Below are positions 1 through 33,089 of a stretch of DNA of 33,837 bases, piece by piece. The stretch covers positions 1 through 33,837 of the forward strand of contig PHCF01000025.1 in NCBI GenBank assembly GCA_002842145.1, in the 5' to 3' direction. Below the pieces are notes generated by a model. The model saw only the letters and a list, made by a program, of their open reading frames with translations. It searched no databases and was not told the origin of the DNA. Position numbers and translations under genes: made by a program. This DNA is from Betaproteobacteria bacterium HGW-Betaproteobacteria-6. Its GTDB lineage: Bacteria; Pseudomonadota; Gammaproteobacteria; Burkholderiales; Rhodocyclaceae. Position 1 is the first letter of the stretch, and every line of letters begins with the position of its first letter.

Positions 1-558
1 GTGCGAGTCGCTGTAGAAATAACTGTCGGCGAAGCTGCCCCACCACAGGCCGAGCGATTCGAGCCAGGCTTCGACGCGGGCGATCTTGCCTTCGCGGAAG
101 GACGGCGTGCCGCTCGGCGAGCCTGAAAATCGCCCATTTTCCGGGTTGACCGTGGGAATGGTGCCGATCAGGTGCGGAATGCCGAATTCGCGGCCAATGG
201 CGCCGGTGACGAAGCTGTTGGTGGCCGTGACGATGGCGCACAGGTCGCCGGCGTCGAGGTGCTGGTTGACCAGCGTCCGGGCTGGCTGGCCGATGATCGG
301 CAGGATGTGGCGGGCCATGTATTCGCCGTGCCAGGCGTCGAGTTCCTGACGCGAATGGCGGGTCAGCGGGGCGAGCTGGAAATTCAGGAATTCGTAGATG
401 TCGAGCGTGCCGGCCTTGTATTGCTCGTAGAACTGGATATTTTTGGCTTCCTGCAACTCACGGTCGACGACGCCTTTACTGATCAGGAATTGCGCCCACT
501 CGAAGTCGGAGTCGCCGGTGAGCAGGGTGTTGTCGAGGTCGAAGAGGGCAAGGTTCAT
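1..558 (-). CDS. HAD-superfamily subfamily IB phosphatase-like hydrolase, C-terminus outside window
   Basis: The protein opens with the HAD motif I FDLDNTLL (residues 5-12), whose first Asp is the expected nucleophile. Motif II is VTATNS near residue 115, and FREGKI near residue 160 supplies the motif III Lys. The visible part ends at YSDSH, where the motif IV acidic residues begin, so the gene is cut by the window edge after 186 codons. This matches the HAD-IB group of small phosphoserine-phosphatase-like enzymes; the substrate cannot be read from sequence. Its ATG overlaps the hda stop (ATGA, 555-558), so the two are probably translationally coupled. A copy of the dispersed element lies inside the gene at 123-159 and encodes the peptide around IPTVNPENGRF. 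Confidence 0.85.
   Translation of the reverse strand, partial: MNLALFDLDNTLLTGDSDFEWAQFLISKGVVDRELQEAKNIQFYEQYKAGTLDIYEFLNFQLAPLTRHSRQELDAWHGEYMARHILPIIGQPARTLVNQHLDAGDLCAIVTATNSFVTGAIGREFGIPHLIGTIPTVNPENGRFSGSPSGTPSFREGKIARVEAWLESLGLWWGSFADSYFYSDSH
123..159 (+). repeat. Dispersed bipartite element, copy 1 (inside HAD gene)
   Basis: GAAAATCGCCCATTTTCC is followed by GGGTTGACCGTGGGAAT, with 21-22 bp to TTGACC. It lies in the coding sequence and reads IPTVNPENGRFS on the gene strand. One extra G in the core compared with the intergenic copies. Confidence 0.6.
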
Positions 559-1208
559 GAGGTGGTTTCCGTGTCGAGCAGTTCGCGCAGCAGGGGCAGG
601 GTGACGGCTCGTTTTTGTTCCAGGGTGTATTGGTCGAGTGCGACGACGATGGCGGACAGGGTACGCATGTCGCGCGGGGCGTGGCGCATCAGGTAATCGA
701 TGATTTCCGGCGTCAGCTTGAGGGCGCGTTCCCTGGCCTGGGTGGCCAGCGCTTCGGCTTTTTCAGCGTCGGACAGCGGCTGCAGCCGGCAGATCAGGCC
801 GGAACCGAGGCGGGTGCGCAGGTCTTCGCGCAGCTTGAGATGGGCTGGCGGCTGGGCGGCTGCAGTCAACAGCATGCCGGAGGCCATTTTCAGGCGGTTG
901 AAATGGTTGAAGAGGGCGATCTGGCCGGTTTCGTTCAGGTTTTCAACGTGATCGACGGCCAGTTGCTCAGTCGTCGGCGCGTTTTTCAGGGCCGGGTCGA
1001 CGGCCGCGTCGACATAGGCAAAACCGCTCGCCTGAAGCAAATGCGAGCATCCCGAGCCGGCTTCGCCCCACAGGCAGAAGGATGTGTCGGTGCGCGTTCC
1101 GGCCAGCCATTCGGTGAGCAGGGCCAGCGTTTCCACGTTGCCGCCGGCGACGAAGTTATCGAGCGTGGGCGAGCTTTCGGGCAGCAAATCGAGAATCAGC
1201 TGGCGCAT
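555..1208 (-). CDS. hda: DnaA regulatory inactivator Hda
   Basis: This is a 217-residue DnaA-related AAA+ protein. In known systems Hda binds the DNA-loaded beta clamp and stimulates hydrolysis of DnaA-ATP, which prevents re-initiation of replication. The N-terminus carries a clamp-binding-like QLILDL (residues 3-8). The Walker A region GEAGSGCS (about 48-55) has Cys where the Lys of a classical P-loop would be, as is usual in Hda, where this Lys is not kept. A sensor-2-like RDMRTL lies near the C-terminus. The start is the ATG giving MRQLIL; the frame stays open further upstream, but that extension has no family similarity. It is the first gene of the pair with the HAD phosphatase, overlapping it by 4 nt. 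Confidence 0.88.
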   Translation of the reverse strand: MRQLILDLLPESSPTLDNFVAGGNVETLALLTEWLAGTRTDTSFCLWGEAGSGCSHLLQASGFAYVDAAVDPALKNAPTTEQLAVDHVENLNETGQIALFNHFNRLKMASGMLLTAAAQPPAHLKLREDLRTRLGSGLICRLQPLSDAEKAEALATQARERALKLTPEIIDYLMRHAPRDMRTLSAIVVALDQYTLEQKRAVTLPLLRELLDTETTS

Positions 1209-1236
1209 CGGGATGGCGAATGGGAACGGGGGCGAA

Positions 1237-1242
1237 ATTCTA
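1237..1242 (-). promoter_or_regulatory. Possible extended -10 of the hda promoter
   Basis: On the minus strand TAGAAT (5 of 6 matches to TATAAT) is preceded by TGC, an extended -10 arrangement, about 30 nt upstream of the hda ATG. No convincing -35 is visible. Purely motif-based. Confidence 0.35.
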
Positions 1243-1288
1243 GCATTGCTCCCGACCCCGGCGCCGATTTCAGCCGGTGCTGCGATGT

Positions 1289-1600: not shown

Positions 1601-1623
1601 GGCGCATCTCCTTCGGTAAAGCT

Positions 1624-1929: not shown

Positions 1930-3158
1930 TTACTGCCAGCTGACCAGTCCGTAGTTCTTTTTGCCTCGGCGCAGGATGGTGAAACGGCCGTAGAGGCGCT
2001 CGTCGTCGGCAATCTGGTGGTCGATGGCGTCGGCTTTTTGGCCGTTGATGGCGACGCTGCCGCTCTGGATGAAGGTACGTGCTTCGGATTTGGATTTGGC
2101 CAAGCCGGCGGCGACCAGGGCATCAATCAGGCTGCCAGCCGATTTTTCGATCTGAACGCCGGGCATGCCGTCCTGAGCCAGTTGCTCGAGGTCGTTTTCG
2201 GTCAGATTTTCCAGTTGACCGTGGAAGAGGCTGTCGGTGATGCGGCGGGCGGCCATCAGGGCCACTTCGCCGTGCACCAGGCGGGTCGCTTCCTCGGCCA
2301 GGATGCGCTGGGCTTCCGGCTTGGTGCCGCCGGCCTTGTCGGTGGCCTCGATTTCGGCGATGCGGGCGACCGGCAGGAAGGTGAAGAAATTCATGAACTT
2401 GTAGACGTCGGCATCGCTGGTGTTGAGCCAGAACTGGTAGAAGGCGTAGGGCGAGGTCTTTTTCGGGTCGAGCCAGATGGCGCCGGATTCGGTCTTGCCG
2501 AACTTGGTGCCGGGTGCAGACGGCGCGTCAGATCGGTGCCGGCAACGATGTTGCCCCACTGGTCGGAGCCGCCAATCTGCAGGACGCAGCCGTAGCGCTT
2601 GTTGAGTTCGGCGAAGTCGTAGCCCTGAAGCAGGCTGTACGAGAATTCGGTGTAGGAAATGCCCTGGTCTTCGCGGGCCAGGCGCTGCTGCACCGATTCT
2701 TTCTTGATCATGGCATTGACCGAGAAATGCTTGCCGATATCGCGCATGAATTCGAGACAGTTCATGCCGCCGAACCAGTCGTAATTGTTGGCCATGATGG
2801 CCGCGTTGGCGCCGTCGAACTGGAGGAAGGGCTCAACCTGGCCGCGGATCTTGTCGACCCAGGTGGCGATCACGTCCGGCGTGTTGAGCTTGCGCTCGGT
2901 CGCCTTGAAGCTCGGGTCGCCGATCATACCGGTGGCGCCGCCGACCAGCGCGATGGGCTTGTGGCCGGCTTGCTGGAAGCGCTTGAGGATGAGCACGGGG
3001 ACCAGGTGACCGAGGTGCAGGCTGTCCGCCGTCGGGTCGAAGCCGCAATAGAGCGTTACCGATTTCTCCGTCAGCAGCTTGTCGAGCGCCTGGGCGTCGG
3101 TGATCTGGGCGATCAGGCCGCGATCGTGCAGATCCTGGATGAGGGGGGACTGGTACAT
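1930..3158 (-). pseudogene. tyrS: Tyrosyl-tRNA synthetase, disrupted by an internal out-of-frame deletion
   Basis: TyrS charges tRNA-Tyr. The 5' frame (start [10 protein letters not shown], class I HIGH motif as HLGH at residues 48-51, conserved GGSDQWGN) is intact to LTRRLH at residue 215. The reading then continues in another frame with GTKFGKTES (the KMSKS-equivalent loop as KFGKT), the anticodon-binding region and the S4-like C-terminus, ending at 1930. Compared with E. coli TyrS as I recall it, about 16 residues (normally reading like QNQVFGLTVPLITKAD) are missing between His and Gly, with 2 nt remaining. This implies a deletion of about 46 nt at 2511-2514. As written it would give a truncated protein lacking the KMSKS loop and tRNA-binding domain. 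Because TyrS is essential, either a second synthetase exists elsewhere or this is a sequence error. Confidence 0.85.
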
Positions 3159-3254
3159 TGCGTTTTCTCCACGGAGCAGCGCCGCCGGCGCCGGAAATTC
3201 GAACCCGCGATTTTAGCAGAGCAGCCGGCGGTCTTTTCGGGGGCGGCGCGTGAT

Positions 3255-3292
3255 TTGAAATTTGGCGGTTTTTCCCGGTTGACCGTGGGGAA
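3255..3292 (+). repeat. Dispersed bipartite element, copy 2 (intergenic)
   Basis: The left block GAAATTTGGCG and the right block CCCGGTTGACCGTGGGGAA have 22 bp from GAAATTT to TTGACC. It lies in the 137-bp gap between the tyrS start and the 3' end of the HrgA-like gene (3296), ending 4 bp from that gene's stop codon. The right block contains the inverted repeat CGGT-TG-ACCG. Confidence 0.75.
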
Positions 3293-3295
3293 CAG

Positions 3296-5444: not shown

Positions 5445-5451
5445 AAAAGCG

Positions 5452-6039
5452 TTGCGGGCCGCGGCGATAGTCGCCTGCGGCCTGTTTCTGCTCAATGGCT
5501 GGTCTTCCGTCCGGGCGGCGAGCAACAAGCCGCTGCACCAGGCGGCAATCAAAAGTGGCCAACAGTCGGCGCGTCGCGCCGGGCCGGCCCCGGCATTCGG
5601 GGCGGCTGACCTGATCGAGGATGGCGTCCCCGGCTTGCGCGGCCTGGCCAGTTTTTACGGCAAGAAATTCGATGGCCGCCAGACAGCTACCGGCCAACGT
5701 TTCGACGCCCGGCAATTTACCGCTGCCAGCAATCGCTTCCCGCTCGGCACCCTGCTCGCCGTCCGGCGGGCCGACAACGACCGGTGCGCCATCGTCACGG
5801 TCAACGACCGGATGCACCCGAAACACCGCAAGCGGATCATCGACGTCTCGCGCAGCGTCGCCGAATACCTCGGCATGGTTCGGGCCGGCGTTGTCTTTGT
5901 CAGCGTGGCACCCGTGAAAAAGGGCCGACCCGATGCTGGCGCCGCCTTGTGTCACGCCGCCTTCGAACCCGAGCCGGAATGCGAATCCTGCGGTCAACCG
6001 CAAAAAATGCCGGAATTCCTCCCGCCGATCGAAAGCTGA
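5452..6039 (+). CDS. RlpA-like secreted double-psi beta-barrel protein
   Basis: The mature part matches the RlpA double-psi beta-barrel: GLASFYGKKFDGRQTATGQRF, FTAASNRFPLGTLLAVRR, then IVTVNDRMHPKHRKRIIDVS with the conserved Asp region. RlpA proteins are peptidoglycan-acting septal or surface lytic transglycosylases, or binders of that class; enzymatic activity here is inferred. No ATG precedes the domain in this frame. The TTG at 5452, 8 nt after the purM stop, gives a plausible signal peptide (hydrophobic AAAIVACGLFLLNGW, then VRAAS cleavage site), so I take it as the start, with no good ribosome binding site. No SPOR domain follows the barrel, and the C-terminus has a CESC pair. Probably cotranscribed with purM. 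Confidence 0.7.
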   Translation: MRAAAIVACGLFLLNGWSSVRAASNKPLHQAAIKSGQQSARRAGPAPAFGAADLIEDGVPGLRGLASFYGKKFDGRQTATGQRFDARQFTAASNRFPLGTLLAVRRADNDRCAIVTVNDRMHPKHRKRIIDVSRSVAEYLGMVRAGVVFVSVAPVKKGRPDAGAALCHAAFEPEPECESCGQPQKMPEFLPPIES

Positions 6040-6121: not shown

Positions 6122-7231
6122 ATGAAAAAAAATACCCGTTTCGGAGTCATCGCCATCGCCCTTGTCGGTCTGGCTGGCTTGGGCTATTTCGCCTACACCG
6201 CCAATCGCGCCCCGATGGCCGGGACGCCTGCGCCGGGCAGTGCGCCGGTCAGCATTCCGACGGCAGTAGAGGTGGCACGGGTGGCGGCCAGCGATTTTGC
6301 CGACGACGTGGCGGCGGTCGGTACACTGAAATCCAACGAATCGGTTGTCCTGCGTCCGGAAACGGCGGGGAGGGTGGCCGCCATCGGTTTCAAGGACGGC
6401 GCTGTCGTGGCCAAGGGGGCGGTGCTCGTGGTATTCGATGCCGCGATCCAGGATGCCGAAGTGCAGCAGGCCCGGGCCAATCTGGCGCTGGCCAAAAGCA
6501 GCTACGAACGGAATGTCGAGCTGGTCGGCAAGAAATTCCTGAGCCAGCAGGCGCTCGACAGCTCGGCGGCGACGCTCAAGGTGCAGGAAGCAGCGGTCCG
6601 GCTGGCCGAGGCCAAGGCCGCAAAAATGCGCATCAAGGCGCCGTTCACCGGCATGGTCGGGTTGCGCAACGTGAGCGTCGGCGATTACCTCAAGGATGGC
6701 CAGGATCTGATCAACATCGAGGATGTCGCCACCTTGCGCGTCGATTTCAAGCTGCCGGAAAACTATCTTGGGCGGATCGGCAAGGGGCAGGTCGTCGAGG
6801 TGCAGAGCGATGCCCTGCCGGGCGAGCGCTTCAAGGCCGTACTCGATGCCATCGACCCGCTGGTCGACGAGAACGGCCGCTCGATTTCGGCCCGCGCCCG
6901 GCTCGATAACGCCAAGGGCAAGCTGCGGCCCGGCATGTTCGTTCGCGTCCGCCTGTTGTTCGGCGAACGCAAGGGCGTGCTCATGGTGCCCGAACAGGCC
7001 ATCGTGCCGGGCGGCCAGCCGGCGGTGTTCAAGGTTGTCGACGACAAGGCCAGTCTGGTCAAGGTCAAACTCGGGGTTCGCCGCGCGGCGCAGGTTGAAA
7101 TCGTGGAAGGGCTGGCCGCCGGCGATGTCGTCGTCACCGCCGGCCAGTTGAAGCTGCGCGATGGCGCGGCGGTGCGCCCGGTGGGCGACGGCGCGCCGAA
7201 GAGTGGCCAAGGGACGGCGGCCGGCAAATGA
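6122..7231 (+). CDS. RND efflux periplasmic adaptor (membrane fusion protein)
   Basis: A 369-residue HlyD/AcrA-type adaptor linking an inner-membrane RND pump to an outer-membrane channel. An N-terminal hydrophobic segment (about 7-25) anchors or exports it. The barrel-sandwich half-motif VGTLKSNESVVLRPETAGRVAA and its partner MRIKAPFTGMVGLRNVSVGDYL flank a helical hairpin (about 105-165, Gln/Ala-rich). The beta-barrel follows, ending with a membrane-proximal region around VPEQAIVPGGQPAVF. The ATG at 6122 (MKKNTRF) is preferred to a TTG 12 nt upstream. The stop overlaps the pump start (ATGA), implying coupled translation. No outer-membrane factor gene is nearby, so the complex must borrow one. 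Substrate unknown. Confidence 0.9.
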   Translation: MKKNTRFGVIAIALVGLAGLGYFAYTANRAPMAGTPAPGSAPVSIPTAVEVARVAASDFADDVAAVGTLKSNESVVLRPETAGRVAAIGFKDGAVVAKGAVLVVFDAAIQDAEVQQARANLALAKSSYERNVELVGKKFLSQQALDSSAATLKVQEAAVRLAEAKAAKMRIKAPFTGMVGLRNVSVGDYLKDGQDLINIEDVATLRVDFKLPENYLGRIGKGQVVEVQSDALPGERFKAVLDAIDPLVDENGRSISARARLDNAKGKLRPGMFVRVRLLFGERKGVLMVPEQAIVPGGQPAVFKVVDDKASLVKVKLGVRRAAQVEIVEGLAAGDVVVTAGQLKLRDGAAVRPVGDGAPKSGQGTAAGK

Positions 7232-10200
7232 AAATTTCAGAGGTCTGCATCAAGCGACCGGTCTTTGCGACGGTGTTGTCGCTGGTCATCATGCTGCTCG
7301 GCATCGTTTCCTACACCCGGCTGCCGGTCCGCGAGTACCCGAAGATTGACGAGCCGGTCGTCACGGTGACGACCGATTACCGGGGCGCCTCGGCTGACAT
7401 CATCGAGTCGCAGGTGACCAAGCCGCTTGAGGATTCGCTGGCCGGGATCGAAGGTGTGGAGGTGCTCACCTCCATTTCGCGGGCCGAGCGCAGCCAGATT
7501 TCGGTGCGTTTCAAGCTGGAGCGGGCGCCCGATTCGGCGGCGTCCGATGTCCGTGACCGGGTTTCCCGCGTCCGCAACAAGCTGCCGGACGAGGTCGACG
7601 AACCGGTCATCGCCAAGGTCGAGGCCGACGCCAACCCGGTGATCTGGATAGCCTTCTCGTCAGACCGGCACTCGGCGCTGGAGGTGACCGACGTCGCCAC
7701 GCGCATCGTCAAGCCGCGCCTGCAGACCTTGCCCGGCGCCGCCGATGTGCGCGTTTTCGGCGACCGCAAGTTCGCCATGCGCATCTGGCTCGACAAGCAG
7801 CGCCTGGCCGCTTACCAGCTGACGCCGGCCGATGTCGAAGATGCCTTGCGCAAGCAGAATGTCGAGGTGCCGGCCGGGCGCATCGAAAGCCGCGAACGCG
7901 AGTTTTCGGTGGTCGCCAATACCGACCTGAAGACACCCGAGGAGTTTGGCGCTGTCGTCGTCAGGACGGTCAATGGCTACCCGGTCCGCATCCGCGATCT
8001 GGGCCGGGTCGAGATCGGCGCTGCCTCGGAACGCAGTACGGTCCGCTTCAAAGGGCGTTCGGCCGTGGCGCTCGGCATCATCAAGCAGGCGACGGCCAAT
8101 CCGCTCGAGTTGTCGAAGGCGCTGCGCGCCGAGGTGCCGAAGATCACCAGCGAACTGCCGGAGGGCATGAGCGCCACACTGTCCTACGACTCGTCGGTGT
8201 TCATCGACCGCTCGATCGAGTCGGTGTTCAAGACCATCGGCGAGGCCATCCTGCTCGTCCTGGCGATCATTTTCTTCTTCCTGCGTAATGTTCGGGCGAC
8301 GCTGATCCCCCTGGTCACCATTCCGGTGTCGCTGATCGGCGCCTTCGGCATCATGTTCGCGCTCGGCTTCACGATCAATACGCTGACCCTGCTCGCGCTG
8401 GTGCTCGCCATCGGCCTCGTCGTCGACGACGCCATCGTCGTCCTGGAAAACATTTTCCGGCACATCGAGGAAGGCATGCCGCGCCTGCCGGCGGCGCTGC
8501 AGGGCGCCAGGGAAATCGGCTTCGCGGTGGTCGCCATGACGCTGACGCTGGCAGCGGTGTATGCCCCGGTGGCCTTCATGACCGGGCGCACCGGCAAGCT
8601 GTTCATCGAGTTTGCCCTGACCCTGGCCGGCGCCGTGCTCGTCTCCGGTTTCGTCGCGCTGACCCTGTCGCCGATGATGTGTTCGGTGCTCCTCAAGCAC
8701 GAGGAAAAGCACGGCAAGGTTTTCCTGATGGTCGAAGGCTTGCTGAACTGGTTGAATTTTGGCTATAAACGGGTGTTGACCGTCGCATTGAACCGCCGCT
8801 GGATCGTCCTCGTCGGCTTCGTCGTCGTCGCCGCCTCCTGCGGCGTCCTGCTCAAGGCACTCAAGTCGGAACTGGCGCCGGTCGAGGATCGCGGCATCAT
8901 TTTCGGGATGTTTCTCGGGCCGGAAGGGGCGACGCTCGATTACACCGAAAAGTATGCCCGCCAGATCGAGGGAATCTACAGCCAGACCAAGGATGTCGAA
9001 CGCTATTTCGTGGTTGCCGGCAACCCGACGGTCAGCCAGGGCATCTCCGTTCTCGGCCTGACCGACTGGAACGATCGCAGTCGCCGTTCGCCGGAAATCG
9101 CCAAGGAACTGTTCCCCAAATTCGCCGCCATTCCGGGCGTCATGGCTTTCCCGATCACGCCGCCCTCGCTTGGCCAGAGTGCGCGCGAGCGGCCGGTCAA
9201 TTTTGTCGTCGTGACTTCCGCCTCCTATGACGAGTTGCAGAAGGTGACCGGGCAGATCCTGGCCGAAGTCGCCAAGAACCCGTCGCTGATCAACGTCGAT
9301 ACCGACCTCAAGCTCAACAAGCCTGAACTGTCGGTCAACGTCAAACGCGACAAGGCGGCCGATATGGGCGTGCCGGTCGAAACCATAGGCCGGACGCTGG
9401 AAACCTTCCTGGGCGGTCGCCAGGTCACCCGCTTCAAGCGCGATGGCGAGCAGTACGACGTGATCGTCCAGGTCGCCGAGGCCGAGCGGCGCAATCCGGA
9501 CGATATCCGCGACATCTATGTGCGTGGCCGCGATGGCAGCATGATTTCCCTGGAAAATCTGGTCGATGTGAAAGAAACGATCAGCCCGCGTGAACTCAAT
9601 CACTTCGGCCAGCGCCGTGCCGTGGCGATCACTGCCAACCTGGCGCCCGGCTACACGCTGGGCGAGGCGCTGACCTTCATGGACGGCGTGGCCGAGCGGG
9701 TGCTCAAGCCGGGCTACGCCGCCGACTACAACGGCCAGTCGCGTGAATTCCGCCAATCGTCGTCGTCGCTCGCTTTCACTTTCGCCCTCGCGCTGGCCTT
9801 CATCTATCTCGTGCTGGCCGCCCAGTTCGAGAGCTTCCGCGACCCCTTCATCATCATGCTGACCGTGCCGCTGTCGATGGCCGGTGCCTTGCTCGCCCTT
9901 TGGCTGTCCGGCGGTACGCTCAACGTCTACAGCCAGATCGGGCTGGTCACGCTGGTCGGCCTGATTACCAAGCACGGCATCCTCATCGTCGAATTTGCCA
10001 ACCAGTTGCAGGAAAAGGGCATGGCCTTGAAAGAGGCGGTCATTGAGTCGGCCTTCCTGCGCCTGCGGCCGATCCTGATGACGACCGGCGCCATGGTCCT
10101 TGGTGCCGTGCCGCTGGCTTTCAGTACCGGGGCGGGGGCAGAATCGCGGCAGCAGATTGGCTGGGTCATCGTTGGCGGTCTGTTGCTCGGCACCTTCTTC

Positions 10201-15790: not shown

Positions 15791-15831
15791 TATTTCAATT
15801 TTTGGCCAAATTTCCGGTTGACCGTGGGAAT
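15791..15831 (+). repeat. Dispersed bipartite element, copy 3 (intergenic)
   Basis: The left block AATTTTTGGCCAAATTT contains the palindrome TTTGGCCAAA and is followed by CCGGTTGACCGTGGGAAT. It ends 14 bp before the 3' end of the GGDEF-EAL gene (stop at 15845), in the 128-bp gap before the TonB-like gene. With copies 1, 2 and 5 it is one of the best preserved. Confidence 0.8.
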
Positions 15832-15844
15832 GGCCTTTCCGGCT

Positions 15845-18591: not shown

Positions 18592-20445
18592 TTATTGTCC
18601 GCGCAGGAACAGCTTGTCGAGTTGGTCCAGCGTTAACTCCGTCCACGTCGGACGGCCGTGATTGCACTGGCCGGCGCGTTCGGTTTCTTCCATCTGGCGG
18701 AGCAGGGCGTTCATTTCGGGCACGGTGAGCTGGCGGCGGGCGCGGACGGCACCGTGGCAGGCCATGGTGGCGAGCAGTTCGTTGCGCCGCGCGGTGGCGA
18801 GCTGGGTGATGCCGTGTTCGCGCAGTTCGGCGATCAGCGACTTGGCCAGCGCGGCCGGGTCGCCGCTTTGCAGCAGGGCCGGGACGGCACGCACGCCGAG
18901 CTGATTGGGGCCGAGCGGGGCGATCTGGAAGCCGAGGTCGGCCAGCGCCTCGGCGTGTTCCTCAACGGCGGCGATGTCGAGCGGATCGGCCGAGAAGACG
19001 GCCGGGATGAGTAGCGCCTGGGTGGCGATCTGGCGGTTGTCGAAGGCAGTCTTGAGCTTTTCGTAGAGGATGCGCTCGTGCGCCGCGTGCATGTCGATGA
19101 GGATCAGGCCGCGGGCGTTCTGGGCCAGGATGTAGATGCCGTGGAGCTGAGCCAGGGCGTAGCCGAGCGGCGGGCCGGCGCTGTCGGGCGGCGGGCTGTC
19201 ATTGCTATCCCCCAAGGGGACTTCCTGCGGGGCGCGGTCAACCGGAAAACTCGGCTGAAATTGAACTGTCGTCGCCGGGCCGGCGGACGAGGGCGTGACC
19301 AGCTGTGCGGCGCGGGCGAAGGCGAGGTAAGCGGCGGCGGCCGGTTCGGCGACGCCGAGGCTGCCCTGATGACGGAGCGGTGGGGCGTATTCCAAATTTG
19401 GCTGATTTTGCCGGTTGACCGTAGTAGCCTCGCGTTCGACCAGCGTCGGGGCGGCTGCGGCCTGCACCGGCGCGGCCAGCGTGCGCTGGATGGCGTGGAA
19501 GACGAACTGGTGCATGGCGCGCGAGTCACGGAAACGGACTTCGGTCTTGGCCGGGTGCACGTTGACGTCGACCAGCGCCGGGTCAACGTTCACGAACAGG
19601 CAGACGGCCGGCTGGCGGCTGCCGTGCAGTACGTCGCGGTAGGCTTCGCGCAGGGCATGGCTGATGATCTTGTCGCGCACGAAACGGCCGTTGACGAAGA
19701 CATACTGGCCGTCCTTGGCTTCGGTGGCGCGCGTCGGGTCGATGGCGAAGCCGACGAGTGACAACGCACCGGCCCCGGCCTCGACCGACCGGGCGGCACC
19801 GAGGAAGTCGTCGCCGAGGATGTCGGCAATGCGTCGCGGGGCGTCGGCGGGGGCGAGCTGGAACAGGTTGCGGCCATTGTGGGTCAGGCTGATCGCCACA
19901 TCCGGCCGGGTCAGCGCCAGACGGCGGACAGCATCGGCGCAGTGGGCGAATTCCGTGCTTTCCGACTTCAGGAACTTGCGGCGGGCCGGGGTGTTGAAAT
20001 AAAGGTCGCGCATCTCGACGACGGTACCGGCCATCAAGGCGGCCGGTTCAGGCTCGGCATCCGGCTCGCCTTTCAACTTCCAGGCATGGCTGGCACCGCG
20101 TTCACGGCTCGTGATGCTCAGCCGGGCGACCGAAGCGACCGAAGCCAGCGCCTCGCCCCGAAAGCCAAGCGTGCCGACGCATTCAAGATCGTCGAGGGTC
20201 GAAATCTTCGAGGTGGCATGCCGGGTCAGCGCCAGCGCCAACTCGTCTTTCGCAATGCCGCAACCGTCGTCGGTAATGCGAATCAGCTTGACCCCGCCTT
20301 CTTCCAGATGGACCTGGATGGCCTTGCTGCCGGCGTCGAGGCTGTTTTCGAGCAATTCCTTGAGAACGGAGGCGGGTCTTTCGACCACTTCGCCTGCGGC
20401 AATCTGGCTGATCAGCAGGTCGGGGAGGCGGGCAATGGTTGGCAT
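18592..20445 (-). CDS. mutL: DNA mismatch repair protein MutL, endonuclease type
   Basis: The N-terminal GHKL ATPase is complete: [38 protein letters not shown] (57-64), [18 protein letters not shown] (91-103), and [11 protein letters not shown]. The C-terminal domain carries D451[11 protein letters not shown]462, which fits the DxHAxxExxxxE metal-binding motif of nicking MutL proteins, plus CNHGRPT near the end. This points to MutH-independent repair. The linker (about 325-425) contains two copies of the dispersed element in opposite orientation. The start MPTIARLPD fits the family N-terminus. A perfect palindrome with a -10 hexamer lies only 4 nt upstream, so the transcript may be leaderless or begin at an alternative upstream ATG (8 codons earlier). 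Confidence 0.95.
19231..19265 (-). repeat. Dispersed bipartite element, inverted copy inside mutL
   Basis: On the minus strand CAATTTCAGCC and TTTTCCGGTTGACCGCGCC lie with the standard 22-bp spacing to TTGACC. It encodes MutL linker residues around 396-405 ([10 protein letters not shown]). Opposite orientation to the second mutL copy 130 bp away. Confidence 0.55.
19391..19427 (+). repeat. Dispersed bipartite element, direct copy inside mutL
   Basis: CAAATTTGGCTGATTTTG is followed by CCGGTTGACCGTAG with 22 bp from the left edge to TTGACC. Read on the mutL strand it encodes [12 protein letters not shown] (about 341-352) in the variable linker. The last bases of the right block diverge from the GTGGGAA seen in intergenic copies. 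Confidence 0.65.
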
Positions 20446-21130: not shown

Positions 21131-21834
21131 TGCGCTGGCTGGCCGTCATTCTCGTTCTGACGCTGACGGCCTGTTCGACGAAGCTGGGCCGGGATGGGCG
21201 GACGGAGTCTACGGTCAACCCGAAATATTTGCTCAAATCGGAAGTCGACCGCATCGCCGACACCAATCGGACCGAAGTGGTCAACGGCCTGCTGCTCATT
21301 GCCGACAAGCTTTACAAACGCAACCCGAAGGAATGGAAGAAGGGGGGCGCAACGAGCCGCGAGGCAGCCGTCGAGCGTCTGCGCCAGCGTCAGCACGGCA
21401 ATTGGGCTGAGTTCAGCGGTCTGCGCGAGGGGGCGATAGCGTCGCTGGCCTTTACCGAAATTTATTCCGGCGACCGCGTCATGGCCCTGATCTACGGGCT
21501 GTTGAGCATGGTCGACGCGGCTTTCGAACACAAGGACGAGTTTTATATCCTCGACAGCCTGAACGAAATGAAGCTCTACAACTGTGCGCGCAACATGGAT
21601 GTCGCCATCTGGAAGCTCGGCCACGACCGTACCGCCACCGGCGAGCTCTTCCTGCTTTCGAACGAGCTCGACCCGGCCAACCGCAATCTCTCGTTCGAGC
21701 GCGAATTCGGCCGCGTCATGGGCCTCCTCGATTTCATGGCCAAGGTCGTTGCCGACCGCAATGGCCGCACCTTTTCCCGGCTGAGCCAGTCCGTGGCCAG
21801 CGCCATCTTTTTACCCGTGAGTTTTTTGAAATGA
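21130..21834 (+). CDS. Putative lipoprotein, unknown function
   Basis: The 234-residue product begins with a lipoprotein signal peptide ending in the lipobox LTAC (Cys15), so it is probably anchored to a membrane on the periplasmic side. The remainder looks helical and repeat-like, with no domain I can name; Tyr, Leu and Asn-rich segments (FYILDSLNEMKLYNCARNMD) recall helical-repeat folds but this is speculative. A strong AGGAGG precedes the ATG. A degenerate copy of the dispersed element lies at 21209-21240, coding STVNPKYLLKS just after the lipobox region. It overlaps purN by 4 nt (ATGA). Confidence 0.75.
   Translation: MRWLAVILVLTLTACSTKLGRDGRTESTVNPKYLLKSEVDRIADTNRTEVVNGLLLIADKLYKRNPKEWKKGGATSREAAVERLRQRQHGNWAEFSGLREGAIASLAFTEIYSGDRVMALIYGLLSMVDAAFEHKDEFYILDSLNEMKLYNCARNMDVAIWKLGHDRTATGELFLLSNELDPANRNLSFEREFGRVMGLLDFMAKVVADRNGRTFSRLSQSVASAIFLPVSFLK
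21209..21240 (-). repeat. Degenerate copy of the dispersed element in the lipoprotein gene
   Basis: On the minus strand GATTTGAGCAAATATTTCGGG precedes TTGACCGTAGA with 21 bp to TTGACC. The left block is poorly matched; the conserved spacing is the main support, and chance is possible. Confidence 0.35.
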
Positions 21835-22499: not shown

Positions 22500-23474
22500 A
22501 TGCCGCTCGCCTTCGTCATCGCGCTCGCCGCATCGCTCGGCATTCATGCCGCTGCGCTGTTCGGGACCGATGTCGAGATATTCGGCGGGGCGGACGAGCC
22601 GGCACCGCTGCTCGTCGATTTGCAACCGCCGCCGGCAGCTCCCCCACCCGCTACGCCACCGGCCAGCGAACCGAAGCCGCCCGCCAAACCGCGCCCGAAA
22701 CCGCCCAGGCCTGCCCCGCTGACCACCGCCAGGCCATCGCCAACGGTCGAAGCCGTGGCCCCGGTGGCGGCAAGCCAGCCTGCCGAAATTGCCCCGAATT
22801 TGCCGTCGACCGTAGCAAACAAGGCGCCGGCGCCGGCCAAGCCGCTGCTGCCGGCCAAAGGCCGCATGCGCTTCGTCATTTACTACGGCACCCAGGGCTT
22901 TGAGATCGGGCGCGCCGAACACCGCTGGGAATTCGCCGAGGACGGTCGTTACCGGCTCGCCGGCATGACTGAAACCACAGGTCTGGTCGCCCTCTTCAAA
23001 CCACTCATCTTCGAAAACGAAAGCAGCGGCCGGCTGGTCGCCGGTGGCCTGCAGCCGGAAACCTACCGAACCCGCAAGAACGGCAAGGATGCCAACGAAA
23101 ATGCCGATTTTGACTGGTCGACCGCTGAGGTCCGCCTGTCGCGCAGCGGTGCCAGCCAGCCGGTCAGCCGTGGTGCCCAGGACATCCTGTCGCTCAACTA
23201 CCAGCTCGCCTACCTGCGCCGGCCGGAAGGCGGGACGACGGTCGGCGTCGTCACCGGCAAGAAATACGACCGTTTCGCCCTCGATTCGTTGGGCGAAGAG
23301 GAAATCGACATCCCGGCCGGCCATTTTCGCACCCTGCACCTGAGGGCGATGGGCGATACGGTCACCGAGATCTGGATTGCGCTCGATCGCCACCGCTTGC
23401 CGGTTAAAATTCGCTACACCGATAAAAAAGGCGACATCTTCGAACAAGTCGCCACCGAAATAGGATCACCATGA
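22500..23474 (+). CDS. DUF3108 domain protein with N-terminal membrane anchor and proline-rich linker
   Basis: A 324-residue protein with a hydrophobic N-terminus (about 3-21) that may be a signal anchor, then a Pro/Ala/Lys-rich linker (about 40-120) reminiscent of TonB-type spacers. A DUF3108 region follows (about 122-320: MRFVIYYGTQGFEIGRAEHRWE, TTGLVALFKPLIFENESSGRLV, FDWSTAEVRL, LDRHRLPVKIRY). DUF3108 proteins are envelope-associated and functionally uncharacterised; in betaproteobacteria they commonly follow purN. A degenerate copy of the dispersed element falls in the linker. The stop overlaps the next gene by 4 nt. Confidence 0.85.
   Translation: MPLAFVIALAASLGIHAAALFGTDVEIFGGADEPAPLLVDLQPPPAAPPPATPPASEPKPPAKPRPKPPRPAPLTTARPSPTVEAVAPVAASQPAEIAPNLPSTVANKAPAPAKPLLPAKGRMRFVIYYGTQGFEIGRAEHRWEFAEDGRYRLAGMTETTGLVALFKPLIFENESSGRLVAGGLQPETYRTRKNGKDANENADFDWSTAEVRLSRSGASQPVSRGAQDILSLNYQLAYLRRPEGGTTVGVVTGKKYDRFALDSLGEEEIDIPAGHFRTLHLRAMGDTVTEIWIALDRHRLPVKIRYTDKKGDIFEQVATEIGSP
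22783..22820 (+). repeat. Degenerate copy of the dispersed element in the DUF3108 linker
   Basis: GAAATTGCCCCGAATTTG is followed by CCGTCGACCGTAGC, 21 bp from the left edge to the TCGACC core. It encodes EIAPNLPSTVA in the low-constraint linker. The core has C in place of T at one position. Confidence 0.4.
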
Positions 23475-24733
23475 AAGCCCGCTTCACACCCGCCCTGTTT
23501 GCCCACGCCGAAGCCGTTCTCGGCCTGTTGCTGCGCTTCGATTACCCGGCCGACGCCGTCGTTTCACGCTATTTTCGCGAGCACCGCGAGCTCGGCCATG
23601 CTGACCGCGCCTTCGTCGCCGAAACGGTGTTTGCCGTGCTGCGCCGCGGCCGCAGCCTCGAAGCACGCTGTGCCGGCAAGCTCTCCGACCGCCGTCGTTT
23701 GCTCGTCGCGCTTGCCGTGACGCGTGGCTGGAGCCAGCGCGAACTGGCCCCGGTTCTCAAGGCCAGCGAAGAAGAGTGGCTGGCCGCCGCCAAGGCCATG
23801 CCGGAAGCCGACTTCCCGCCGGCCGTCCGTTGCGATCTGCCGGACTGGCTGTACAACCGCCTCGAAACCCAGTTCGGCGCCGAAGAAACGCTGGCCCTGG
23901 CCCATGCCCTGAACCAGCCGGCGCCGCTCGATCTGCGCGTCAATACGCTCAAGGCCAACCGCGAAGACGTGTTGGCCAAGCTGGCTGCCGACGACATCGC
24001 CGCCATGCCCGGCCCGCTCTCGCCGATCGCCGTCCGCCTGCGTGACAAGCCGGCGCTGGCCAAGCACCCGCTGTTCATCGAAGGCGCTGTCGAGGTTCAG
24101 GACGAAGGCAGCCAGCTGCTCGGCTTCCTGCTCGAACCGAAGCGCGGCGAAATGGTTGTCGATTTCTGCGCCGGCGCTGGCGGCAAGACGCTGCTCCTTG
24201 GCGCCCTGATGCGCAACACCGGCCGGCTCTACGCCTACGATGTCTCCGACAAGCGCCTGGCCAACCTCAAGCCGCGGCTGGCCCGTTCCGGGTTGTCCAA
24301 CGTCCATCCGGCCCGCATCGAGCACGAGCGCGACACCAAGATCAAGCGTCTGGCCGGCAAGGCCGACCGCGTGCTGGTCGATGCACCGTGCTCCGGTCTC
24401 GGCACCCTGCGCCGCAATCCCGACCTCAAGTGGCGTCAGGATGAGGCCTCGGTGGCCGAACTGACCGTCAAGCAACTGTCGATTCTCGAAGCCGCTTCGA
24501 CCATGGTTCGCCCGGGCGGCCGTCTGGTTTATGCCACGTGCAGCCTGTTGACCGCGGAAAACGACGACATCGTCGCTGCTTTCCTGGCAAAACATCCCGA
24601 TTTCACGCTGGTTCCGGCGTCGACCATTCTTGCCAAGCAAGGCATCGCCTTTGACGGCGACATGCTGCGTCTGCTGCCCCATCAGCACAACACCGACGGC
24701 TTCTTCGCCGCGGCGCTGGAAAAGAAAGCATGA
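23471..24733 (+). CDS. RsmB/NOP-family rRNA (cytosine-C5) methyltransferase
   Basis: The 420-residue enzyme has an N-terminal NusB-like helical part (about 1-75) and a Rossmann SAM domain: VVDFCAGAGGKTLLLGAL (motif I), AYDVSDKRL, then DAPCSGLGTLRRNPDLKWR with C307 and GRLVYATCSLLTAEND with C357. These are the two cysteines expected of m5C methyltransferases, nucleophile and release. The final segment NTDGFFAAALEK fits the family. It is not called rsmB because the context (purN operon) differs from the usual fmt-rsmB locus, and betaproteobacteria carry paralogues. It overlaps its neighbours on both sides by 4 nt. Confidence 0.88.
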   Translation: MKARFTPALFAHAEAVLGLLLRFDYPADAVVSRYFREHRELGHADRAFVAETVFAVLRRGRSLEARCAGKLSDRRRLLVALAVTRGWSQRELAPVLKASEEEWLAAAKAMPEADFPPAVRCDLPDWLYNRLETQFGAEETLALAHALNQPAPLDLRVNTLKANREDVLAKLAADDIAAMPGPLSPIAVRLRDKPALAKHPLFIEGAVEVQDEGSQLLGFLLEPKRGEMVVDFCAGAGGKTLLLGALMRNTGRLYAYDVSDKRLANLKPRLARSGLSNVHPARIEHERDTKIKRLAGKADRVLVDAPCSGLGTLRRNPDLKWRQDEASVAELTVKQLSILEAASTMVRPGGRLVYATCSLLTAENDDIVAAFLAKHPDFTLVPASTILAKQGIAFDGDMLRLLPHQHNTDGFFAAALEKKA

Positions 24734-28289: not shown

Positions 28290-30364
28290 CTACTTTCGTT
28301 CCCAGATGGTGACTTCGGACAGGGTGTGCTGGAATTTTCGTTTCGTTTCGCGAATGACAAAGGGTACCGATTCGGGCCCGCGCACGAGTCGGAAGTGCTC
28401 ACCGAGGATTGCTTTCAGGCTATCGAAGGTGGTCAGATTCTCGCCATCCTTCTTGAAGCCGCCGATCCATTCCTCGCGCTTGGTATGCTCCGTCAGCCAG
28501 GTGTAGGGCGAGGTCAGCATCAGCAGACCGCCTTGGTTCAGGCGTTGATGGACAGTTTTGAGGAAGAGTGCCGGACTGTACAGGCGGTCAATCAGGTTGG
28601 CGGCCAGAATCAGGTCGTAGCCGGCGAAAACAGGTTTCAGGTTGCAGGCATCACCCTGAAAGAACTCAACCTTGGTCGCCACATCGCTCAGCCCTAGTGC
28701 GCCCAGCGAGCATTCCTTGTAGCTGACCAGTTCGCCTTCTTCGGTCAGCGTGTAGCGCAGCCGGCCCTGTTCGGCCAGTTGCGTGCCGACGCCGATGAAG
28801 CGGAATGGCGTGCCAGTTCAAAAGTGGCGCGGCCGGTGGCGCAGCCGAGATCGAGCGCACGATGTGCCGGCTTGTCGCCCATCGTTTCGATGGCCAGTTG
28901 GGCGAGCGTTTTCGGGAAATTGGCGACACCGAAATATTCGTCGCCGTAATGGAATTCGATGTATTCCGAAATCAGACGGTCGGTTTCGTAATGCGAAGCA
29001 TGCTGGGTCGCCGGCGCATCGGCCACGACATAGCGGAAACCGGCATGCTGGAAAAAGTGGCGGCGGAAGGCATAGCGCGAGACCGGCGCCGCTTCATTGC
29101 CGCAGGAAATCCACGAACCGCCCTTGAACAGGTTGTGGCGCTCGTCGAAGGTCGGTGTCGTGAAATCGTCGTAGATCGGATGAACTTCAAAACTCGCGAA
29201 CGGGTAGATGGGGGTTTCCAGCCATTGCCAGACATTGCCGATGACGTCGAACAACGGGCCGTGGGCAAAGCGATTGACCGGGCAGCTCGACGCCTCTTGG
29301 CTTAAACCGAGATTGGCCGGCGCTTCGTCGGGCAACTCGGCGATGCCGGCGAACTGGCGCAGTGCCTGCCATTCGTCTTCGGTCGGTAGGCGTACGGCCA
29401 GGCCGCTCTCGCGTGCCTTCCAGTTACAGAAAGCCTTGGCCTCGTGGTAATTGGTTTCGACTGGCCAGTCCCAAGGCATGGCCACTTCTTCGAGCATCAG
29501 GCGCAGGCGCCATTGCGTGCCGTCCTTGATCCAGAAAGTTGGATGGGCAGCCTTGGCGAAGTTCTTCCAGGCAGCGCCTTCTGCCGGCCATAGTGCGTCG
29601 TCGGCGTAGCCGCCGGCTTCGACGAAGGCGAGGAACTCGCGATTCGACACCAGATAACGGCTGGCCTGAAATGCTGCGGTCGACGCTTCATGATGACCGA
29701 ATTCGTTGTCCCAGCCGTATATTTTCGGATCGCTACGGTCGCGACCGAGGCGAAATTCGGCCGCTGGAATGACGATCAGTGCGTTCTCGGGCGCCGGCCC
29801 GCTGTCGCGACAGGGCGCCCAGGCCGGATGTTTCTGTACGTATTTGAGCTGATGCTGGCGAATCAGCACCGACGAGGTTTCGAGGTGGATGCGCTCATGC
29901 TCGATGCCCATCAGGATGATCCAGAACGGGTCTTCCCAGCCGATGGGCAGCGTTAGTGAATTTGTGCGAATTATCCGGTCGACCGTAGCGCGCACGCTTT
30001 GCCGATAGGCGCGCACCTCATCGACGCTTGGCCAGTCGTAACGCTGGTCGTTGAGGTCGTCCCAGCTCATTTCGTCGACGCCAATGGCAAACATCGACTC
30101 GAAACCCGGGTTGATGCGCTGTGCAAGCAATCCGGCCAGCACCAGTTTGTTGATGAAAAAGGTGGCAGTGTGTCCGAAGTAGAAAATAAGCGGGTGGCGT
30201 AGCGCAATCGGCTTGACGTAATACGCCTCGTCGCTGGTCAGCACCTCGAATAGCTGCTCGTAGCGGTCGAAGGTGGCGTGAAAGTAGTCGAGGATCTGAC
30301 GGCGCTTCTGCTCAGTGTCAGCGCCCGTCAACAAGGGCGTAGCGGGAAAAGGGGCTGGCTTCAT
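28290..30364 (-). pseudogene. ovoA: 5-histidylcysteine sulfoxide synthase OvoA (ovothiol), methyltransferase domain disrupted
   Basis: OvoA joins Cys and His with oxygen to make the ovothiol precursor, and its C-terminal SAM domain methylates the imidazole. The N-terminal DinB-like domain has the iron ligands H65, H156 and H160 (EHERIH). The middle is an FGE-sulfatase-like fold (about 185-440: LPTEDEWQALRQF, IGNVWQWLETPIYPF, LFKGGSWISCGNEAAPVSRYAFRRHFF). The methyltransferase begins with LDLGCATGRATFELA and then shifts frame at residue 520 (28800-28807). It resumes in another frame as FIGVGTQLAEQG, running to TIWERK at 28292. Against OvoA as I remember it, about 10 residues (the acidic SAM loop near GVDFSA) are missing, implying a deletion of about 31 nt. 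The synthase half could still work; the methyltransferase could not. Confidence 0.85.
29956..29990 (+). repeat. Degenerate copy of the dispersed element in ovoA
   Basis: GAATTTGTGCGAATTATCCGG is followed by TCGACCGTAGC with 21 bp to the core. On the gene strand it encodes ATVDRIIRTNS in the DinB-like domain. That peptide fits the OvoA family, so the match may be selected or coincidental. Confidence 0.3.
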
Positions 30365-30965: not shown

Positions 30966-30979
30966 TCGACTGAAAGGCC

Positions 30980-32303
30980 CTATTGGCGCGCCTTCCAGCT
31001 TAGCGTGAAGCGGGCGCCGCCGAGTGGCGAGGCATCGGCCTTGGCGGTGCCGCCATGCAGTTCGAGTACGCGGCGAGCGATGGCCAGGCCGAGGCCGTAG
31101 CCACCGGTGGACCGGTCGCGCGAACGGTCGAGGCGGGTAAAGGCGGAGAAGATGTGCTCGCGCTCTTCGGGCGGGATGCCGATGCCGTCGTCGTCGACGT
31201 GGATCAGCATGTTGTCGCCATCGAGCTCGGCACTGACGGCAATCCGCGTCGCGGCGTACTTGAAGGCGTTGCGCAGCAGATTGCGCAGGGCGTAGGGCAT
31301 GGCCTTGCGGTCGAGGTCGACAAACAGGTTTTCGGGCAGTTTGTCGGTGTTGACCATAAGTCAGGCTGGTGTCGATGAGCTGGTCGAGTTCGTTGAGGTC
31401 ACCCTCCATCATCGCCCACAGCCGCTCGCGTTCCTGGCGGATTTCGGTTTCGGAAAGCATTTCCAGCGCGAAGCGCATGCGGGCAATCGGCGTGCGCAGT
31501 TCGTGGGAGATGCCGCAGGAAAGCTCGCGGTGGGTGGCGAGCAGTTGGCGAATCCGTTCGGCCATGCTGTTCATCGTGTCGGACAGCGGGGCGAATAGTT
31601 GGGTTCGGATGGTCGGCGAGCGCGCGTCGAAATTGCCGTCACCCAGATCGATTGCGGTCTGGCGCAGCCCTTCGAGGTCGCGCCAGACCGGGCGAACCCA
31701 GAACCACAGGGCGATGGCGAAGATCAGGCCGATCAGGCTCCAGGTCAGCAGGCGCAGTCGGAGTTCGAGGGGCAAGCGCTCGCTGACTTCCCGGTTGCGG
31801 CTCGAGGCGAGCGGGCCAACTACCAATACCTTGCTGCTTGTCCCGAGGCGGTGATACATGATGTCACCGTCGTGGTCGATGGCGATGTCACCAGCATCAA
31901 GCTTGATGACCTGCTTTGGCGTCAGGGTGTGGTCGAGGGTCATGCGTTCGACGATGCCCAGCCGATACGAGAATTTTTCGTCGATGTCCTTGATGCGCTT
32001 GGTCCATTCCCGGCGCGGATGGCGGAAAAGCTCGTCCTCGATCAGGGTGATCGTGCCGCGCATGAAGCGGCGCGCGTAGTCGTCGGTAATGCCGCGTTGG
32101 GCGGTGGAAATGACAAAATCAGCCGTAAAGGCAATGGCAACAAAGGAGCCCATCGCCAGCAGGTAGAAATTGAAGAACAGCTTGGACAGGCTGTAACGCC
32201 GTCCGCGCCAGCGCGGCAGGGCCACCCGGATCAGCGAGCGGGCCAGCCCCTCGTTCTTTTCCTTCGGTTTGGCCGTGCCGGCTTCGGGATCAGTTCCAGT
32301 CAT
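30980..32303 (-). pseudogene. RstB-like sensor histidine kinase, disrupted by an internal deletion
   Basis: The 5' frame encodes TM1 (about 43-67), a periplasmic region, TM2 (about 187-205, LTWSLIGLIFAIALWFWV), HAMP and the HisKA box SHELRTPIARMRFALEML with H267, up to DTSLTY (residue 316). The frame then breaks at 31354-31358. The continuation VNTDKLPENLFVDLDRKAMPYALRNLLRNAFKYA, the G1 box DDDGIGIPP and the G2 box GGYGLGL lies in another frame ending at 30980. By comparison with RstB-like kinases some 30-40 residues of linker between HisKA and HATPase appear missing. The start codon overlaps the regulator's stop by 14 nt, as in intact two-component operons. As written it would make a kinase without an ATP-binding domain. 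Confidence 0.8.
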
Positions 32304-32994
32304 GCTTGCTGAAAAGGTAACCCTTGCCGCGCACAGTCTTGATGCGCGTCGGGTTTTCCGGGTCGTCGTTCAGCTTCTTGCGCAGGCGGGAAATACGTGC
32401 GTCGATGGAGCGATCCAGCCCGTCGAAACCGATGCCGCGCAGTTCCTGCAGCAGGTCGTCGCGCGACAGTACATTGCCGGCGTGAGTGGCAAGCAGCCAG
32501 AGCAGATCGAATTCAGCGGTGGTCAGGTCGATGGTCAGTCCGCTCAGCGATGCCGTGCGGGTGGCCTGGCTGATGCGGAACTGGCCGAATACCATGTTTT
32601 CGGATTCGCCATTGCCGGTTTCCGGCACCGTCGGCAGGCGGCGCAGCAGCGCCTTGATGCGGGCGAGCAGGACGCGGGGTTGAACCGGTTTCGCGATGTA
32701 GTCGTCGGCACCCATCTCGAGGCCGAGAATCTGGTCGAAATCCTCGTCGCGGGCCGTCAGCATCAGGATCACGCCGCGATATTGCGCGCGGACGGCACGG
32801 CAGACTTCAAAACCATCCTTGCCTGGCAGCATGACGTCAAGAATGACCAGATCCGGCTGCTCGGTCAGAATGCGTGCCTCGGCGGTGTCGCCACGCGGCT
32901 CGATGCTGACTTGCATGTCGTTCTTGGTCAGGTATTCGGCCGTCAGTTCGGCCAGTCGTTCGTCGTCCTCGACGAGCAGGATGCGTGTATTCAT
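32290..32994 (-). CDS. OmpR-family response regulator, RstA-like
   Basis: The 234-residue regulator has a receiver domain (EDDERL acidic pair, phospho-acceptor Asp in LVILDVMLPGKDG, Thr in MLTARD, Lys in IAKPVQPR) and a C-terminal winged helix (LTTAEFDLLWLLATHAGNVLSRDDLL, DARISRLRKKLNDDPENP, IKTVRGKGYLF). The C-terminus resembles E. coli RstA. It heads an operon with the overlapping kinase gene. The ATG at 32994 gives MNTRILLVEDDERL. The 150-bp divergent region to dsbB contains one copy of the dispersed element. Confidence 0.92.
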   Translation of the reverse strand: MNTRILLVEDDERLAELTAEYLTKNDMQVSIEPRGDTAEARILTEQPDLVILDVMLPGKDGFEVCRAVRAQYRGVILMLTARDEDFDQILGLEMGADDYIAKPVQPRVLLARIKALLRRLPTVPETGNGESENMVFGQFRISQATRTASLSGLTIDLTTAEFDLLWLLATHAGNVLSRDDLLQELRGIGFDGLDRSIDARISRLRKKLNDDPENPTRIKTVRGKGYLFSKHDWN

Positions 32995-33050
32995 CCGCCA
33001 ATCTTAACCACCTGCCGGGCGGCGGTCCACCGTCATGTGGCGTGGTTGGC

Positions 33051-33089
33051 AATCCCACGGTCAACCGGGAAAAAGGCCAAAATTTCAAG
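33051..33089 (-). repeat. Dispersed bipartite element, copy 5 (intergenic)
   Basis: On the minus strand GAAATTTTGGCC, a T-run, then CCCGGTTGACCGTGGGATT, with 22 bp to TTGACC. It is the best match to the other intergenic copies. It sits between the divergent rstA-like and dsbB genes, 57 bp from the regulator's start codon. Confidence 0.8.

Follow-up and report, generated by a model that had tools for sequence, protein, structure and literature searches.

A dispersed 41-bp motif as a putative DNA uptake sequence in Azonexaceae

The stretch of DNA analysed here (the window) comprises 33,837 nt of contig PHCF01000025.1 from Betaproteobacteria bacterium HGW-Betaproteobacteria-6, whose genome is denoted G000. 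It carries 13 copies of a 41-bp motif, consisting of a conserved core and two A/T tracts, that is dispersed over both strands of the genome far above chance. Comparative analysis suggests that the motif is a putative DNA uptake sequence of presumably naturally competent Azonexaceae, functionally similar to the uptake signal sequence (USS) of Pasteurellaceae and the DNA uptake sequence (DUS) of Neisseriaceae; we place the probability of this reading at about 75%. The traits that together match those published for USS and DUS are the origin of coding copies in place, the presence on both strands, the tolerance of coding sequence combined with a preference for intergenic DNA, and the small number of close neighbours. 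Two motif-free inserts, the A-tract shape, clade dialects and frequent absence from related genomes complete the match.

The motif, its A/T tracts and its placement

Core words were sought in the whole of G000 (4,315,322 bases, 226 contigs), and an ungapped position weight matrix was applied to a 407,487-base sample consisting of the window and 20 further stretches, with at least 14 bits as the threshold for site counts. Alignment of the 62 sample copies with the core GGTTGACCGT gave the 41-column consensus ATTTCAWTTTTGGCCnTTTTTyCCGGTTGACCGTRGsAATC, with abrupt edges beyond which conservation is at background level. The original prediction had described a ~36-bp element in about nine copies on both strands; the recurrence on both strands was borne out, but the element is 41 bp long and occupies 13 sites in the window (Table 1). 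All nine copies listed at that stage were recovered, with scores of 30.4-54.0 bits, and one ungapped model fits 9/9 of them, in agreement with the fixed spacing that had been claimed. The inverted repeat CGGT-TG-ACCG that had been pointed out is real, but it is merely part of the core and differs among the dialects described below.

In the sample, 117 sites reached the threshold (51 on the plus and 66 on the minus strand), 91 of them with at least 30 bits. No site of at least 10 bits was found in one order-2 Markov sequence or in the reversed sample sequence, and the proposed comparison of a profile scan with randomised sequence thus gave counts far exceeding chance. The exact 14-mer CCGGTTGACCGTNG occurs 340 times in G000, compared with once for the reversed pattern, and the strand comparison, also proposed, returned 162 plus-strand and 178 minus-strand copies. 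Because the sampled stretches were drawn from contigs with core matches, and are hence 1.2-1.3 times as dense as the genome, the corrected whole-genome estimate is ~925-1,010 sites. The 14-base core with up to two mismatches is present at 13 places in the window (1.54 expected; 13 was reached in 0 of 100 shuffles), and these places overlap incompletely with the 13 weight-matrix sites.

The two A/T tracts lie 10 bp apart, at columns -16 to -12 and -6 to -2 before CCGG. Their letters vary (common forms are TTTTT, ATTTT, AATTT, AAATT and AAAAT), and the T-to-A step (TpA) is found in only 2/76 and 7/75 of the all-A/T tracts, compared with 2,090 of the 4,314 all-A/T 5-mers of the sample (Fisher p = 1.8e-29; 9/151 pooled over both tracts versus 48%). 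Such a pattern would result if a narrow, rigid minor groove were selected for, and it is not expected from the decay of inserted copies. In broad terms, the suggestion of a protein-binding site thus holds, because the tracts show this shape signature.

The shape signature and the helical phasing of the tracts might also be seen at sites bound inside the cell by a nucleoid or chromosome-organising protein (gyrase, IHF/HU, or a ParB- or SMC-loader-like protein), if such a protein read the core together with the phased A-tracts and the sites were kept by selection on chromosome structure. The similar use of both strands and the few close neighbours would likewise suit this explanation. It is the main rival to the uptake reading and a serious one; we consider it unlikely in view of the distribution of the motif in the genus, described below.

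Genes were called from codon usage by a program made for this analysis, which predicted 374 genes in the sample (88.3% coding). Among the 117 sites, 76 (65%) lie inside genes, 30 are intergenic and 11 straddle a gene edge, whereas random placement would give 84.8%, 9.9% and 5.3%, respectively. Many copies are thus coding, yet non-coding DNA is favoured, with a 2.6-fold intergenic enrichment (p = 8e-7). The occurrence of copies both between and inside genes, as reported originally, holds for the window, where 10/13 sites fall within predicted genes. Intergenic copies have a mean score of 49 bits versus 37 bits for copies in genes, and the 76 genic sites are distributed unevenly over the six frames (29, 21, 12, 9, 3 and 2). 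Intervals shorter than 500 bp number 3/97, compared with 15.3 in simulations.

Intergenic enrichment is a property that would be shared by transcription signals, that is, terminators, promoters or operators of a global regulator, and TTGACC with upstream A/T tracts resembles an UP element followed by a -35 box. We consider an explanation of this type very improbable. A promoter composed of an UP element and a -35 box was set aside because the sites are mostly inside predicted genes (65%), in both orientations, and because the dialects change TTGACC (to GTCCACC or GTCGACC) while the tracts stay.

Table 1. Copies of the 41-bp motif in the window, with weight-matrix scores and predicted gene context
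Feature	Position	Strand	Score (bits)	Context	Listed in the original prediction
Motif copy	120..160	+	36.6	Within predicted gene 1-558 (-)	yes
Motif copy	2189..2229	+	35.8	Within predicted gene 1930-2559 (-); kept in G014, length unchanged	no
Motif copy	3253..3293	+	48.8	Intergenic (predicted genes)	yes
Motif copy	5983..6023	-	35.6	Within predicted gene 5452-6039 (+)	no
Motif copy	8750..8790	+	32.7	Within AcrB-type resistance-nodulation-division (RND) pump gene 7228-10266 (+)	no
Motif copy	15792..15832	+	54.0	Intergenic (predicted genes); best score in the window	yes
Motif copy	19227..19267	-	31.3	In mutL (18592-20445, -), between N- and C-terminal domains	yes
Motif copy	19389..19429	+	47.8	Same mutL interdomain stretch as 19227..19267, opposite strand	yes
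Motif copy	21204..21244	-	37.9	Within predicted gene 21130-21834 (+)	yes
Motif copy	22780..22820	+	36.9	Within DUF3108 gene 22500-23474 (+)	yes
Borderline copy	24522..24562	+	12.9	Under the count threshold	
Weak motif copy	29669..29709	-	17.8	Within gene 28745-30334 (-)	no
Motif copy	29953..29993	+	30.4	Within gene 28745-30334 (-); found in G052 and G053 but not in G055, G002, G012 or G003	yes
Motif copy	33050..33090	-	51.1	Intergenic; seven relatives retain it, G003 with a D2-type core	yes

Origin of the copies at orthologous sites

Window sites were aligned with up to 12 relatives. The site at 21204-21244 is gap-free in 12 relatives, and its scores there (36, 36, 34, 34, 33, 33, 24, 22, 12, 11, 7 and -8) range from 36 to -8 because of substitutions alone. 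For the sample, 241 orthologous pairs were scored, derived from 52/117 sites, and pairs that share a site are not independent; the remaining sites are near stretch ends, or the fetched DNA lacks an orthologue with enough flank. Among the 58 coding pairs in which the relative has no motif, 32 agree in length within 3 bp, 25 of them exactly, and the other 26 show assorted indels. A dialect switch in place was found at a coding site in locus L035 (position 1260), where the core reads GGTCGACCGTAGCAGTC in G000 and CGTCCACCGCAGCAGTC in G014, with the length equal and the tracts retained in G014. Because motif-less orthologues are often equal in length and differ by substitutions, the coding copies are not insertions, and the alignments indicate that coding sites have been gained, lost and re-coded by substitution.

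These comparisons bear on the option of a non-autonomous palindromic element like the Rickettsia palindromic element (RPE), which had been raised in the original prediction and is contradicted for coding sites. Repetitive extragenic palindromic (REP) sequences, RPE, miniature inverted-repeat transposable elements (MITE) and the dRS3-type repeats of Neisseria are short and dispersed, contain an inverted repeat and reach hundreds of copies, and the 41-bp motif resembles them in these respects. A mobile repeat of this kind, inserting between and inside genes, would account for the sharp edges, the 10-bp inverted repeat in the core, the copies in genes, and the length differences of more than 3 bp in 16/16 intergenic pairs without the motif. 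It differs from the motif, however, in that the motif is not inserted at the tested coding sites, its tracts exchange A for T without TpA, which is not copy decay, and its core is altered in place at orthologous sites. Empty sites in orthologous loci had been proposed as a check; a fitting length difference (35-46 bp) was found in 3/241 pairs, one of which still has the motif. We regard a mobile repeat as extremely improbable overall, and for the gap-free coding sites an inserted element is refuted by the orthologue alignments. A REP/RAYT system was also considered, on account of the GTRG tetranucleotide. Intergenic pairs that keep the motif (n = 65) have an identity of 0.92 within the element versus 0.77 in the flanks.

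Distribution and dialects

The occurrence of the motif was examined with a generic pattern composed of two A/T tetramers at fixed places and GTYSACCGYRG, and its matches were counted across 76 genomes belonging to the genus. At least one match was present in 68 genomes; 36 genomes contain 40-658 matches, 12 contain 7-39 and 28 contain 0-6. The reversed pattern gave 4 matches in total across the 76 genomes. Elsewhere in the order, 393 genomes, including 7 from the same family, were scanned for the generic core only; 11 of them had one match each, a number at chance level because the reversed pattern gave 17 matches. Among the matches listed for the strict D1 form, all belong to metagenome-assembled genomes titled Rhodocyclaceae, Azonexaceae, Azonexus, Betaproteobacteria, Gammaproteobacteria or Proteobacteria bacterium. 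These titles suggest that the genus to which the window belongs is Azonexus/Dechloromonas, in Azonexaceae.

Dialect words were derived from k-mer counts in ~400-kb samples per genome, and three cores were distinguished: D1 (GGTTGACCGTRG), which is the dialect of the window, D2 (GTYSACCGCAGCA) and D3 (CACGGTCGACCGTGA). The top words were GGTTGACCGT in G000 (64 versus 1.7 expected), GTTGACCGCA in G014 (46 versus 1.9) and CACGGTCGAC in G101 (94 versus 4.5); no over-represented word of this kind was found in the ~400-kb sample of G047. When the alignment was anchored on the core alone, the A/T tracts were found at the same distance from CGGT in the three dialects. The core-distant tract has an A/T fraction of 0.96-1.00 at its middle in G000, G014 and G101, and the core-near tract is weaker in G014 and G101 (0.53-0.77) than in G000 (0.79-0.98). 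The dRS3-like arms TTCCC/GGGAA were rejected as a feature of the motif, since the D2 and D3 words do not preserve them.

The dialects were placed on a tree of a 657-base dprA fragment, in which 40/76 genomes were labelled and 10/37 inner branches are strong. Six labels were used, with thresholds chosen for this analysis, including none (<12), weak (12-59), and D1, D2 or D3 by majority. All nine D1 genomes fall within one group of 14 (support 100/96), together with the two mixed genomes, half of the four weak ones and a single genome that lacks the motif. The D3 genomes form a sister pair (100/100); D2 is scattered, as is motif absence. The six labels require 13 changes on the tree, compared with 23.2 in shuffles (0/200 as low). 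The core words and the tree together show at least three dialects that follow phylogeny in part, and the scatter of D2 is as would be expected of an ancestral state.

This distribution argues against a chromosome-organising protein, since 28/76 genomes of one genus with no more than 6 copies, together with dialects of the core, are unexpected for a housekeeping factor. In G101, the 52 plus-strand sites listed of 65 are uniform over 2.86 of 3.57 Mb (Kolmogorov-Smirnov p = 0.30), so that no polarity or macrodomain was seen among them. Inserts of 43 and 34 kb, described in the next section, tolerate zero sites. FtsK-orienting polar sequences (KOPS), matS and parS are dispersed chromosomal binding motifs for chromosome segregation, and the 41-bp motif is likewise dispersed over the chromosome; it differs from them in its 41-bp bipartite form, in that neither strand polarity nor regional confinement was seen, and in being nearly absent or re-coded within the genus. 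An uptake- or segregation-type motif had been among the options first offered, and the uptake side of it is favoured by the similar use of both strands, the broad spread, the dialects and the frequent loss.

In the otherwise motif-poor genome G102, six D1-core copies lie within about 224 kb of contig C1 (1.48-1.70 Mb), a cluster that might reflect the import of DNA from a D1 relative. In the sample of G048 (L176, L180-L199), the strongest over-representation is that of a separate dRS3-like repeat (words CGTCATTCCCGC and GCGGGAATCCAG), and the uptake-like motif is almost lost from this genome.

Competence genes and the uptake reading

Competence machinery, including pilin genes, is present in the genus. 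A comEC homolog above the curated cut-off was found in 68/76 genomes and dprA in 73/76; at E <= 0.001, comEC was found in 75/76 genomes, but 12/14 control genomes also match at that level. The pilin genes of G000 include a ComP-family (PF16732) minor pilin and FimT. In two D1, motif-rich genomes, comEC is interrupted by large inserts (43.3 kb in G111 and 33.7 kb in G002) that contain 0 sites, compared with 9.6 generic matches expected jointly. Sites are found just beyond the insert, on both sides in G111 and on one side in G002. Newly acquired DNA is thus depleted of the motif in the two usable inserts (77 kb).

The USS is described as a core flanked on one side by two A/T tracts that are spaced by about one helical turn and whose shape is important; it occurs in hundreds of copies on both strands, 65% of them coding in Haemophilus influenzae with non-coding DNA favoured; copies arise by substitution, are fewer in newly acquired DNA and form clade dialects (PMC1626085, PMC7811141). 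The 41-bp motif shares the core with two A/T tracts, the importance of tract shape, the copy number, the use of both strands, the coding share with its preference for non-coding DNA, the substitution origin, the lower number in newly acquired DNA and the dialects. On the 3' side of its core it likewise has the two A/T segments, about one helical turn apart, and D2 read on the other strand (TGCTGCGGTCAAC) contains GCGG, the inner core of the USS. D1 and D3, by contrast, have ACGG in place of GCGG. The first tract begins 12 bp after the C of CGGT, whereas that of the USS is just 3' of the core; the tracts are 10 bp apart rather than 12, and the motif is longer (41 bp). The 41-bp motif also differs in its host (Betaproteobacteria, Rhodocyclales), its lower density and its few close pairs, and it is known here from sequence alone.

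The DUS, as far as the relevant part of PMC3630211 describes it, is a repeat with dialects that partly follow phylogeny. The 41-bp motif resembles it, and the system of its receptor ComP, in having partly phylogenetic dialects, a betaproteobacterial host and a ComP-family minor pilin. The sequences are unrelated: in the parts of PMC3630211 and PMC1626085 that describe it, the Neisseriaceae DUS is a short repeat with a CTG core and without flanking segments, whereas the D1 core lacks CTG and is flanked by A/T tracts. The motif also differs from the DUS in that many members of the genus are nearly motif-free and the ComP-family pilin does not track dialect.

If the motif is an uptake sequence, a surface DNA receptor of the competence apparatus would prefer DNA in which the core stands beside the two A-tracts, which lie one helical turn apart and would make the DNA rigid or bent, with a narrow groove. 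The better its copies, the more often a fragment would be taken up and would then replace resident alleles by recombination. The motif would thereby build up by substitutions chromosome-wide (molecular drive) until limited by gene function. Changes in the receptor would create dialects, and loss of specificity would let sites decay.

Several observations weigh against the uptake reading. The first is the scarcity of the motif (up to 6 copies) in 28/76 genomes of a single genus, 23 of which still have comEC above the cut-off. Its density, about 1 per 4-5 kb, is below the ~1 per kb of Haemophilus and Neisseria. USS and DUS have a share of their copies in close inverted pairs, which are rare here, and the coefficient of variation of the intervals (0.85 versus 0.93 for random placement, P = 0.13) is not significantly low. 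Perfect cores outnumber one-mismatch cores in tract context (43 versus 17), but regardless of context the numbers are 62 and 75. All 16 intergenic pairs without the motif differ in length, and intergenic orthologues are indel-rich, so that the origin in place is shown for coding sites only.

Points of the same kind come from the competence genes and inserts. In G000 itself, comEC is in two neighbouring pieces (442- and 400-aa open frames, C145:64643-66402), neither above the cut-off; a frameshift or an error in sequencing or assembly may account for the split. Two D1-like sites (C1:3088362 and 3091249, 22.9 and 37.9 bits) are present in the part scanned of the insert that splits comEC in the motif-poor genome G100 (L282), and one site (12.6 bits) in that of G005, so foreign DNA is not always motif-free; an insert like that of G100 may derive from a motif-rich relative. 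Motif number does not differ between genomes with split and intact comEC (12 versus 43 genomes at least 90% complete, G000 left out; p = 0.36), and comEC disruption as the cause of motif loss was rejected for lack of correlation. The PilE/ComP-family pilin and FimT were considered as the receptor and rejected: neither tracks dialect, and neither is supported as a specificity factor because both differ sharply within the D1 group, in which FimT identity is 78% in G003, 53% in G012, 42% in G053 and 41% in G104 and PF16732 scores range from 40.7 to 89 bits.

Taking the uptake reading further, it is fairly likely that a self-specific uptake code, consisting of an evolving core and two phased A-tracts, evolved in Azonexaceae independently of Neisseriaceae and Pasteurellaceae. 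It would comprise three or more dialects, of which D2 is widespread and D1 and D3 would be derived, with the mixed genomes G043 and G003 between dialects and with repeated losses. The repeated splitting of comEC by large inserts, tag-free in two motif-rich genomes, would point to a conflict of mobile DNA with transformation. If so, this would be a third, independent case of DNA self-labelling, which would appear as a general outcome of biased uptake and recombination. Neisseriaceae and Pasteurellaceae are mostly animal-associated, and the habitat of the motif-bearing Betaproteobacteria is soil, water and sludge; the drive model would thus become testable outside mucosal habitats. Dialect, mixed, weak and lost states stand side by side in one genus, which would allow a comparison of receptor, motif and recombination. 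The motif might also be of practical use in the transformation of such bacteria. Sections of two papers (PMC12616744, October 2025; PMC7811141) state that uptake sequences are known only in Neisseriaceae and Pasteurellaceae. A literature search for uptake sequences in Rhodocyclaceae, Dechloromonas or Azonexus, with preprints and most subscription journals outside its scope, found no such report among the papers listed (12 of 601 in one of the broader searches); the one paper matched directly concerns a gonococcal pilus factor, to judge by its title and abstract. The available passages of the Dechloromonas aromatica genome paper (PMC2907700) make no mention of such a repeat.

Inserts in comEC were also observed more widely. 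In 10/76 genomes (G103, G100, G111, G002, G044, G005, G056, G018, G036 and G029), comEC is in pieces 2.4-64 kb apart on one contig, with three pieces in G018. The breakpoints cluster near profile positions 143-166 and 590, and the inserts (L263-L272, L274-L282) are mostly of lower GC content (0.50-0.58 in most 5-kb bins). From these features, comEC looks like an integration hotspot in the genus.

The minor pilin genes of the fimT/pilV/pilW/pilE type (G000:C218:26745-33104 and counterparts) vary strongly from genome to genome, although identity in the window region is ~90%, which suggests exchange or diversifying selection.

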